Made by a program: the position numbers and the translations under genes. This document shows positions 12,975-15,629 of a stretch of 55,242 nucleotides of DNA, piece by piece (positions within the stretch are counted from its first letter, which is position 1; the number at the start of each line of letters is the position of its first letter). The notes under the pieces were generated by a model. That model had not been told where the DNA came from. It was given only the letters and a program-made list of their open reading frames with translations, and searched no databases. Source of the stretch: an uncultured Oscillospiraceae bacterium (GTDB taxonomy: Bacteria; Bacillota; Clostridia; Oscillospirales; Oscillospiraceae); assembly GCA_947626905.1 (NCBI GenBank), contig CANQUE010000007.1:1-55242 (forward strand), in the 5' to 3' direction.

Positions 12975-13024
12975 CGCAAGAGTCAGTTTCATCTTTTTCA
13001 TTTTGTCCTCATTCCATAGGGAGT

Positions 13025-13065
13025 CGCCGGAACATGGTCGCAATGTTCCGGCGATTTTCCTTTTT
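13025..13065 (+). terminator. Leader terminator / candidate attenuator before the GTPase-NYN gene
   Basis: A perfect 11-bp GC-rich stem (13025-13035 with 13043-13053) and 7-base loop is followed by ATTTTCC and six T residues, a good intrinsic terminator. It lies about 160 bases after the previous gene and only 18 bases before the start codon of the next, downstream of a candidate promoter. That layout fits transcription attenuation, as used by several ribosome-protection and ABC-F genes, though simple termination of the upstream operon is not excluded. Confidence 0.55.
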
Positions 13066-13082
13066 TGCGGGAGTTATTCTAT

Positions 13083-15629
13083 ATGAAGGATTTGACCATC
13101 GGCATCCTGGCCCATGTGGACGCGGGCAAGACCACTCTGTCCGAGGCCATGCTGTACCTGACGGGAAAGATCAAAAAGCTGGGCCGGGTGGATCACCGGG
13201 ACACCTTCCTGGACACCCACGACCTGGAGCGGGCCCGGGGCATCACCATCTTTTCCAAGCAGGCCATCCTCCCCGTCGGAGATAAGACCGTGACTTTGCT
13301 GGACACCCCCGGCCACGTGGATTTCTCGCCGGAGGCGGAGAGGGTATTGCAGGTGCTGGATTACGCCATCCTTGTCATCAGCGGCACCGACGGCGTTCAG
13401 GCCCACACGGAGACCCTGTGGTCCCTTCTGGAGCGGTACCGGGTGCCCGTGTTCCTGTTCGTGACGAAAATGGACGTGGCCGGGACGGACCGGATCGCCC
13501 TGGCGGCGGACATCCGCGCCCGCCTGGGCGAGGGGTGCGTGGACTTTTCCCAGAGCGGCGCCGCCCGGGACGAGGCGGTGGCGCTGCTGGACGAGGCGGT
13601 GCTGGACAGCTATACCGCCGCCGGGGCCGTGACCCGGGAGGACATGGTCCGGCTCATCGGGGAGCGGAAGCTGTTCCCCTGTTTTTTCGGCTCCGGGCTG
13701 AAGCTGGAGGGCGTGGAGGAATTTTTGGACGGCCTGGACCGGTACACCCGGCTCCCCGCCTGGCCTCTCCCCTTCGCCGCCCGGGTATACAAGATCGGCC
13801 GGGACGGCCAGGGCAACCGCCTGACCTATCTGAAGCTCACCGGCGGGAGCCTGTCCGTGCGGCAGCCGGTCCGCTATCTGCCTCTGGGCGCCGGGGAGGC
13901 GGTGGAGGAAAAGATCAGCCAGATCCGCCTCTACTCCGGGCTGCGATACGACGCCGTCCCCGCCCTGGAGGCGGGACAGGTGTGCGCCGTGACCGGCCTG
14001 TCCCAGACCTGGCCCGGCCAGGGCCTGGGGGCGGAGCCGGAGGGGAGCGCCCCCTGGCTTACCCCCGCCATGGGCTACCGGATCGTCCTGCCGAAGGGGT
14101 GCGACCCCCAGGTGATGCTCCCCAAGCTGAAGACCCTGGAAGAGGAAGAGCCCCAGCTGCACATCCTGTGGCAGGAGCAGCTGGGCGAGATCCACGTACA
14201 GCTCATGGGCGCGGTACAGATCGAGATCCTGAAAAGCCTGATCCGGGACCGGTTCGACGTGGATGTGGACATCGACGCGGGCCGGGTCCTGTATCGGGAG
14301 ACCATCGAAAACACCGTGGAGGGCGTGGGCCACTTTGAACCGCTGCGCCACTACGCGGAGGTGCATCTGCTGCTCCAGCCCGGCGAGCCGGGCAGCGGCG
14401 TCACGGTGGACACCGCCTGCCCGGAGGACGTACTGGACCGCAACTGGCAGCGGCTGATCCTCACCCATCTGGAGGAAAAACAGCATCTGGGCGTGCTCAC
14501 CGGCTCCCCCATCACCGACGTGAAGATCACCCTTCTCTCCGGCCGGGCCCACCTGAAGCACACCGAGGGCGGCGATTTCCGCCAGGCCACCTACCGGGCC
14601 GTGCGCCAGGGGCTCATGCAGGCCAAAAGCGTGCTCTTGGAGCCCTATTATGCCTTCCGGCTGGAGGTCCCCGCCGCCCAGATCGGCCGGGCCATCACCG
14701 ACATCCGGGCCATGGGCGGCCGGCACGAGAGCCCCGTTTCCCAGGGGGACATGATGGTCCTGACCGGCTCCGCTCCCGTGGCCGCCATGGCCGAGTACGC
14801 CTCCCAGGTGGCCGCGTATACCGGCGGACGGGGCCGCTTTTCCTGCCATGTGGACGGCTGCCGGCCCTGCCACGATGCCCAGGCCGTCATCGAAGCCGCC
14901 GGTTATGACCCGGAGGCCGACACCGCCAACACCCCGGACAGCGTCTTCTGCGCCCATGGGGCAGGCTTCAACGTGAAGTGGGACAAGGTCAAGGACTATA
15001 TGCACCTGGCCAGCTGCCTGGGCCCCTCCGCCCCGGAAGAGGCCCAGAGCGGGGTGCAGACGCAGAATCTGGATATCGACGAGAAGGAGCTGGAGGCCAT
15101 CATGGTCCGGGAGTTCGGCCCCATCCGCCGCCGGCAGTACTCCGCGCCCCAGGTCAACAGCGCCATCGGCGTGGAGATGTACGCCCGAAAACGGCCGGAG
15201 CACATCATCGTGGACGGCTACAACGTGATCTTCGCCTGGGAAAAGCTGAAAACCCTGGCGGGGCAGAGCCTGGACCTGGCCCGAAACCGCCTGCTGGATA
15301 TGCTGGCCAACTACCAGGGCTATACCAAGAGCGATCTGGTGGTGGTGTTCGACGCCTACAAGGTCCCCGGCGGCACAGGCGCCCGGGAGACCCAGGGAAA
15401 GCTGCGCGTCGCCTATACCCGGGAGGGCGAAACCGCCGACATGTACATCGAGCGGCTGGTGGGCGAGATCGGGAAAAACGAGACCGTTCGGGTGGTCACC
15501 TCCGACCGGCTGGTCCAGCTGGGCGCCTTCCGGGCCGGGGTGCTGCGCACCTCCTCGGGGGAATTCCAGGCCGAGGTGGATTGGGTCCTGGAGCAGATCG
15601 CCGACGTGGTGAAGCGGTCGCAATTCTAA
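13083..15629 (+). CDS. TetM/EF-G-like translational GTPase fused to a C-terminal YacP/Rae1-type NYN domain
   Basis: An 848-residue two-part protein. Residues 1-660 are a ribosome-protection-type GTPase: G1 AHVDAGKTT (10-18), RGITI switch I, G3 DTPGHVDF (74-81), G4 TKMD (128-131), then EF-G-like domains II-V. The domain IV tip that in TetM carries the SPV motif reads LKHTEGGDF (491-499), so tetracycline release is doubtful. After a linker with FGPIRRRQY comes an NYN/PIN domain (about 706-848) with IIVDGYNVIF, VVFDAYKV, ADMYIERL and VTSDRLVQ, matching YacP/Rae1, the A-site mRNA endonuclease. Start ATG 13083 has GGGAG 10 bases upstream; 14 bases separate it from ylmH. Inference: a factor that enters stalled A sites and cleaves mRNA. 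Confidence 0.88.
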   Translation: MKDLTIGILAHVDAGKTTLSEAMLYLTGKIKKLGRVDHRDTFLDTHDLERARGITIFSKQAILPVGDKTVTLLDTPGHVDFSPEAERVLQVLDYAILVISGTDGVQAHTETLWSLLERYRVPVFLFVTKMDVAGTDRIALAADIRARLGEGCVDFSQSGAARDEAVALLDEAVLDSYTAAGAVTREDMVRLIGERKLFPCFFGSGLKLEGVEEFLDGLDRYTRLPAWPLPFAARVYKIGRDGQGNRLTYLKLTGGSLSVRQPVRYLPLGAGEAVEEKISQIRLYSGLRYDAVPALEAGQVCAVTGLSQTWPGQGLGAEPEGSAPWLTPAMGYRIVLPKGCDPQVMLPKLKTLEEEEPQLHILWQEQLGEIHVQLMGAVQIEILKSLIRDRFDVDVDIDAGRVLYRETIENTVEGVGHFEPLRHYAEVHLLLQPGEPGSGVTVDTACPEDVLDRNWQRLILTHLEEKQHLGVLTGSPITDVKITLLSGRAHLKHTEGGDFRQATYRAVRQGLMQAKSVLLEPYYAFRLEVPAAQIGRAITDIRAMGGRHESPVSQGDMMVLTGSAPVAAMAEYASQVAAYTGGRGRFSCHVDGCRPCHDAQAVIEAAGYDPEADTANTPDSVFCAHGAGFNVKWDKVKDYMHLASCLGPSAPEEAQSGVQTQNLDIDEKELEAIMVREFGPIRRRQYSAPQVNSAIGVEMYARKRPEHIIVDGYNVIFAWEKLKTLAGQSLDLARNRLLDMLANYQGYTKSDLVVVFDAYKVPGGTGARETQGKLRVAYTREGETADMYIERLVGEIGKNETVRVVTSDRLVQLGAFRAGVLRTSSGEFQAEVDWVLEQIADVVKRSQF

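Follow-up and report, generated by a model that had tools for sequence, protein, structure and literature searches.

A translational GTPase and a Rae1-like nuclease in one frame

The window, by which we mean the whole 55,242-nucleotide stretch of DNA analyzed here, carries a gut-bacterial gene in which a translational GTPase runs through a linker into a nuclease domain resembling Rae1 (YacP) of B. subtilis (Table 1). Pfam places GTP_EFTU at residues 4-222 (E 1.1e-46), EFG_IV at 400-515, and EFG_C at 517-598. The profile search of the C-terminal part that a preliminary description of this DNA had called for returned NYN_YacP (PF05991) at residues 708-845 (E 3.1e-42), with 144.8 bits against a cut-off of 24.6. 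Although EFG_III (23.9 bits) and EF-G_D2 (13.3 bits) fall below the Pfam cut-offs of 27, domains II and III are present in the alignment of the AlphaFold2 model to EF-G (the VIA-align structural rows take in residues 1-635 of the fusion protein). With its G domain, its EF-G domain order, and its G1 (AHVDAGKT), G3 (DTPGH), and G4 (TKMD) motifs, the protein belongs to the EF-G/EF2 family; Thr replaces the usual Asn in G4, as Thr does in 9 of 77 sequences drawn from the best 80 of at least 589 relatives. The preliminary description had reported an intact EF-G/TetM-like GTPase with these three motifs continuing in frame into an NYN domain, and Pfam and the single 848-codon frame confirm it. The VDGYN (710-714), FDAYKV (756-761), and TSDRLV (806-811) motifs of the nuclease part are likewise all there as described.

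Table 1 Positions of the fusion gene, its parts, and its leader hairpin in the window.
Feature	Position	Strand	Remarks
GC-rich hairpin followed by a T run	13018..13066		directly 5' of the fusion gene's ribosome-binding site
Fusion gene, 848 aa	13083..15629	+	ATG 13083 to TAA 15627-15629, single open frame; ortholog L076 has the same frame
Complete EF-G/TetM-type translational GTPase, residues 1-635	13083..14987	+	
Domain IV loop, residues 416-428, GHFEPLRHYAEVH	14328..14366	+	pattern GHxEPLRHYAEVH; decoding-center position expected by EF-G homology
Domain IV tip, residues 490-500	14550..14582	+	HLKHTEGGDFR
C-terminal insert, residues 596-623	14868..14951	+	invariant C596 and C623
Flexible linker, residues 636-706	14988..15200	+	low pLDDT (AlphaFold2 model); dN/dS 0.53
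Short helix within linker, residues 667-678	15081..15116	+	conserved pattern E669, I673, R676; helix in AlphaFold2 model
NYN_YacP (Rae1-like) nuclease domain, residues 707-848	15201..15626	+	without standalone Rae1's C-terminal arm
Putative catalytic acids D711, D757, D786, D808	15213..15506	+	conserved; aligned with standalone Rae1 and YacP

The fusion is not an artifact of this contig. A scan of genome contigs with the GTPase half yielded at least 589 relatives, the best 80 of which were named and retained. GTPase and NYN domain share one frame in 76 of these 80; among the other four, L115 and L136 stop at a contig end, L138 has its NYN part in another frame, and L127 has no visible NYN part. 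The possibility that an assembly error or frameshift had joined two genes, a concern raised in the preliminary description, is thereby ruled out. Its other concern, loss of the NYN acidic residues across homologs, fares no better: D711, D757, D786, and D808 are kept in all 77 aligned sequences (from the best 80, with 4 of the named loci omitted) and in all 40 sequences found via the NYN domain. The closest relative among the best 80 is the ortholog L076, with identical architecture and 81% identity; between the two proteins dN/dS is 0.20 in the GTPase, 0.53 in the linker, and 0.25 in the NYN domain, and so below 1 on either side of the junction. The AlphaFold2 model has a mean pLDDT of 85.5 and a pTM of 0.67, with values below 50 confined to residues 649-665 and 680-702, both in the linker. 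The linker helix pattern is conserved in the 77 sequences from the best 80 relatives (E669 in 73, I673 in 74, R676 in 63). One relative, L069 in the one-contig genome G221, is split by a single in-frame TAG into pieces of 288 and 618 residues, which could reflect a pseudogene, a sequencing error, or read-through; it was omitted from the set of 40 sequences found via the NYN domain and from the FastTree tree of GTPases.

The surroundings of the gene point to no partner. The commonest neighbor cluster occurs in 10 of 124 loci when all frames of at least 110 aa outside the fusion stretch are counted, so that no operon partner was found, and the absence of a PADLOC match led us to reject a defense system. 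The hairpin and T run preceding the window gene (fold z -4.68 for 12975-13066) have a counterpart in L076, where the corresponding hairpin, read by eye, follows the stop of the upstream gene. Such a site lies within 250 nt in 25 of 113 leaders, versus 1.2% of base-shuffled ones, and it may be an attenuator or the terminator of the preceding gene.

Relationship of the GTPase to TetM and to an NYN-less sister

The best NCBIfam model for the fusion GTPase is NF012153 (tetracycline resistance ribosomal protection protein), but at 379.4 bits the protein scores far under the curated cut-off of 775. Three Tet rows, L184, L186, and L187, reach 810, 853, and 881 bits on the same model, and three related GTPases without a nuclease (L156, L157, and L162) score 393, 450, and 414. 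Domain IV separates the fusion proteins from the TetM/TetO ribosome-protection proteins (PDB 3j9y), which have a different tip. The tip of the fusion proteins reads HxKHTxGGDFR, with HTxGGDF in 116 of 116, and H490 aligns in an ungapped block with residue 573 of T. thermophilus EF-G; two TetM rows identified by NCBIfam (L186 and L187) read YYSPVSTPADFR at the domain IV tip. None of the 116 fused proteins has the SPVS-type domain IV loop of TetM. Atkinson et al (2015; PMC4342817) describe tip loops as dislodging tetracycline.

Two further features mark the subfamily. In the 416-428 loop, H417, E419, L421, H423, Y424, and E426 are invariant in 77 of 77 sequences from the best 80 of at least 589 relatives, and H428 is present in 73, part of this motif having served as the search basis for those relatives; the same six residues are also invariant in the 40 sequences found via the NYN domain. 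C596 and C623, which bound the C-terminal insert, are present in all 77 sequences; no such insert was seen in the TetM and EF-G rows compared, to which the fusion moreover adds an NYN domain. Judged by these alignments, the fusion GTPase is a distinct EF-G-shaped subfamily with its own domain IV tip rather than TetM's.

The 416-428 motif, the other domain IV motifs, and the Cys insert are shared by an NYN-less sister GTPase encoded by frames of 645-729 aa (L156-L171 and L176), with relatives on Ligilactobacillus salivarius plasmids. Fused and sister rows fall in one clade (61 of 61, FastTree support 0.999; L190-L195 omitted), whose neighbors are TetM and a mixed set of mid-tier rows that includes L184, which passes the Tet cut-off. 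The fused rows form one clade with an SH-aLRT of 98 in IQ-TREE versus 0.61 in FastTree, and the sister rows with 67 versus 0.41. In the FastTree of NYN domains, L041 and L172 group with standalone rows and the standalone L021 lies among the fused, and an AU test does not reject a single fused clade (p 0.767). Within the class sample described below, the sister occurs in 16 genomes, of which 10 have a standalone Rae1, 6 have no NYN_YacP match of any kind, and none has the fusion. Given those 6 genomes, the GTPase has, or had, a role that does not involve the nuclease. By sequence the fusion looks like the sister GTPase and Rae1 in one chain, though the sister also lives without Rae1.

The preliminary description had also foreseen that annotation pipelines would call such genes tetracycline resistance, and this is true for some relatives. 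A search of 72,556 plasmid records gave 62 matches at E 1e-30; coverage of the query is 80% or more in 9 of them, and 2 of the 9 extend into the NYN domain. These two are named 'translation factor GTPase family protein' and 'TetM/TetW/TetO/TetS family ...'. With so few matches we set aside the idea of a mobile resistance gene. GTPases on L. salivarius plasmids of 141-530 kb (H3-H30) are 47-50% identical over residues 1-641 to 1-692 and carry a tetracycline-resistance name in all but one of 28 cases.

The nuclease domain and the fate of standalone Rae1

Rae1 is described as cutting within the ribosomal A site (PMC12320835, PMC6613710), and few other endonucleases are known to cleave ribosome-bound mRNA (PMC12320835). 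The identification of the window domain as a Rae1-type nuclease, made in the preliminary description, is borne out: the domain's sequence matches B. subtilis YacP as crystallized in 5mq8/5mq9 (E 5e-23). Counted along that alignment, the four conserved acids correspond to YacP residues 7, 53, 81, and 104, so that the NYN domain and each of these four acids are common to the fusion and Rae1/YacP. In B. fragilis, an NYN nuclease is reported to have three conserved aspartates, one of which was tested and is required for cleavage (PMC11346440).

Unlike the fusion, Rae1/YacP is a small free protein (160-217 aa among the relatives here) with no GTPase and with a C-terminal arm of fixed length. The distance from TSD to the C-terminal end is 67-71 residues in 23 of 23 standalone proteins; in fused proteins, measured from the last TSD-like match, it ranges from 25 to 90, and it is 43 in the window protein. 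We defined the arm by an LEKxRR-type pattern taken from 21 of the 23 standalone rows, where it lies in the last 30 residues; it occurs in the last 40 residues of 6 of 116 fused proteins, and the window protein has no C-terminal arm with such an ending. By this measure most fused nucleases are without Rae1's arm. The match of the window domain to YacP stops at chain residue 137, and YacP residue 166 therefore has no aligned counterpart in the window; in B. subtilis, Rae1 R166P is reported as a loss-of-function suppressor (PMC6613710). From where the match ends, residue 166 would be situated in the C-terminal arm.

We surveyed a sample of 291 genomes from the window's class, its own included. 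NYN_YacP matches in 189 of them, and by frame length the match is fused in 99, standalone in 84, partial in 5, and no more than weak in 1. All 99 fused frames also match the GTPase profile, as do the 5 genomes with partial frames, and G224, scored as standalone with a fusion-grade GTPase, has a fusion that contig ends divide into L191 and L192. The corrected tally is 105 fusion-type and 83 standalone genomes, and none of the 291 has both a fusion and a standalone Rae1 above the cut-off. If the two were independent, 30 overlaps would be expected versus the 0 observed, a contrast that relatedness among the genomes inflates. The switch between the two forms occurs inside genus g36 and inside family f25. 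The 11 genomes of the genus divide into 7 fused and 4 standalone, 0 with both (a further, sub-cut-off match occurs in three); 16 of the family's 22 genomes matched, 5 with a standalone gene and 11 with a fused or partly fused frame. No genome of the family has intact genes of both kinds, and one, G525, has the fusion plus a rae1 relic.

NYN_YacP is present in 50 of 81 genomes sampled from the family to which the window belongs, with frames of at least 848 aa in 47 of the 50 and of 160, 266, and 602 aa in the remaining three. The other 31 of the 81 have no match, which means that the function can be dispensed with. In a phylum-wide sample, the GTPase profile finds 10 of 149 genomes at 1e-150, and each of the 10 has a frame of fused length. 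Three genomes (G136, G201, and G242) have a sub-cut-off NYN_YacP match (~21 bits, profile positions 3-49) in a frame of 163-165 residues beside the fusion, perhaps another small NYN/PIN-like protein. One genome, G133, has two complete fusion genes, with frames of 894 and 890 aa.

The standalone gene usually lies between rlmB and sigH, unlike the fusion gene. At 23 standalone loci, which make up the standalone part of the 30 top-scoring NYN matches and were not drawn at random from the 84, an RlmB-like frame lies upstream in 15 and a SigH-like frame downstream in 22 (labels checked by NCBIfam on L007). We examined this slot in 46 fusion genomes (16 + 30), 42 from the 99 and 4 from the scans of g36 and f25; the 30 were hand-picked, most of them because their lineage was likely to have sigH adjacent. 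We found rlmB in 46 of 46, with sigH adjoining in 24. No intact rae1 lies downstream of rlmB in any of the 46, and 5 retain a decayed rae1 in the slot, with E-values of 8e-13 (L198), 9e-11 (L240), 2e-5 (L231), 6e-5 (L233), and 2e-4 (L237). Two of the five are strong; L237 is weak in each aligned piece. The same search found nothing in control sequences (0 of 46 antisense, 0 of 920 shuffled slots, and 0 of 46 stretches upstream of rlmB). In the window's genome rlmB is on another contig (C58), and the fusion gene is not between rlmB and sigH. Replacement of standalone Rae1 by the fusion in these Clostridia is thus well supported by the sequence comparisons.

A GTPase that may carry a nuclease to the ribosome

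The architecture is not new: Atkinson et al (2015; PMC4342817) reported NYN-bearing 'Tet' proteins from ten clostridial species and suggested antibiotic resistance via RNase activity. The window fusion, with the same architecture and taxa, is a member of that group. In section 9 and associated passages of that paper the account takes up two sentences, which contain no comparison to standalone Rae1 and do not deal with relics, loops, or the arm. Our literature search found no other account of the fusion, covering the Rae1 papers incompletely; Condon 2018, 'Distribution of ... Rae1', may mention it. What is new here, as far as the literature was searched, is the evidence that Rae1 was replaced, together with the rae1 relics, the missing arm, and the sister GTPase.

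We lean, with some reserve, toward reading the fusion protein as an endoribonuclease directed to the ribosome, one that takes the place of standalone Rae1/YacP in many Clostridia, with the GTPase delivering mRNA cutting to stalled ribosomes. The sequence basis is the architecture, its conservation, the exclusion of standalone Rae1, the decay of rae1, the loss of the arm, and the absence of the TetM loop; ribosome binding, cleavage, the substrate, the order bind-hydrolyze-withdraw-cut, and the role of the arm are what we infer. By analogy with Rae1 and EF-G, such a protein may recognize paused ribosomes and cut their mRNA.

EF-G and TetM insert domain IV into the decoding center. Domain IV and the nuclease, both expected in the A site, would want the same place, and because they would compete for it, simultaneous action of the two halves is doubtful. 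We propose instead, as the simplest order, that the EF-G-shaped GTPase would bring the protein to the factor-binding site of ribosomes with a tRNA-free A site, where domain IV would probe or clear the A site with its own tip. GTP would then be hydrolyzed and domain IV withdrawn, after which the NYN domain, on its flexible tether of ~70 residues, could enter and cut mRNA in or beside the A site. The GTPase would assume the ribosome-binding task of the lost Rae1 arm, and the loss of the arm fits such a hand-over. It is a tentative, rather doubtful extension that the tethered Rae1 domain is allowed into the vacated site by GTP hydrolysis and the withdrawal of domain IV, giving a large part of the Clostridia a GTP-clocked 'clear, time, cut' factor in a single protein; if true, this would couple the translational GTPase cycle to mRNA cleavage.

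Resistance to tetracycline or another A-site antibiotic through a protein of the ribosome-protection type, with the RNase domain as a new mode of resistance as Atkinson et al (2015) proposed, is by the sequence evidence a less likely reading, and we regard it as improbable. In its favor, the GTPase and the TetM group are related, NF012153 being the best model for the GTPase; the fused and sister clade neighbors TetM and mid-tier rows, and pipelines give some relatives a Tet name. Yet the protein scores less than half the curated cut-off that genuine Tet rows exceed, the SPVS tip is missing from all 116 fused proteins, 2 of the 9 plasmid matches with at least 80% coverage reach the NYN domain, and a resistance gene would not be expected to exclude standalone Rae1 as the fusion does across the class sample. 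If the protein were instead a ribosome-rescue or drug-clearing GTPase, its nuclease might target rRNA or tRNA rather than mRNA. An EF-G-like position on the ribosome is expected on that account too, the sister persists in 6 of 16 genomes with no NYN_YacP match, and a part for NYN domains in maturing rRNA and tRNA has been proposed (cited in Atkinson et al, 2015; PMC4342817). We nonetheless think such a target quite unlikely, since published work describes the nearest characterized relative, Rae1, as cutting mRNA in the A site and the fusion replaces exactly that gene.

It is also conceivable that the link is passive, the halves acting like their free relatives on different ribosomes or at different times with GTP hydrolysis uncoupled from cleavage. 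The long linker, predicted to be disordered, and the expected competition of domain IV and NYN for one site would suit this arrangement; the conserved pattern of the linker helix and the loss of Rae1's arm suggest, however, a nuclease adapted to its carrier, and we consider a passive link unlikely.

On the delivery reading that we prefer, a natural fusion in Rae1's place points to one possible answer to how Rae1 selects its ribosomes, namely that a dedicated GTPase escorts it, and some genes named for tetracycline resistance may be mRNA-decay factors. We would also predict that in other Clostridia free Rae1 may have the NYN-less sister GTPase as a partner; the association of the two in 10 of 16 genomes is not significant (p 0.19).

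Genome G243 has both an NYN-less GTPase (L170) and the standalone Rae1 L021, whose NYN domain lies among the fused in the weak FastTree and which may have arisen when a fusion came apart again. Two fecal contigs also carry near full-length fusion relatives and are labeled Bacteriophage sp. (H31, MT835563, 54% identity; H32, MT835514, 48% identity); these relatives are either phage cargo or bacterial contamination.
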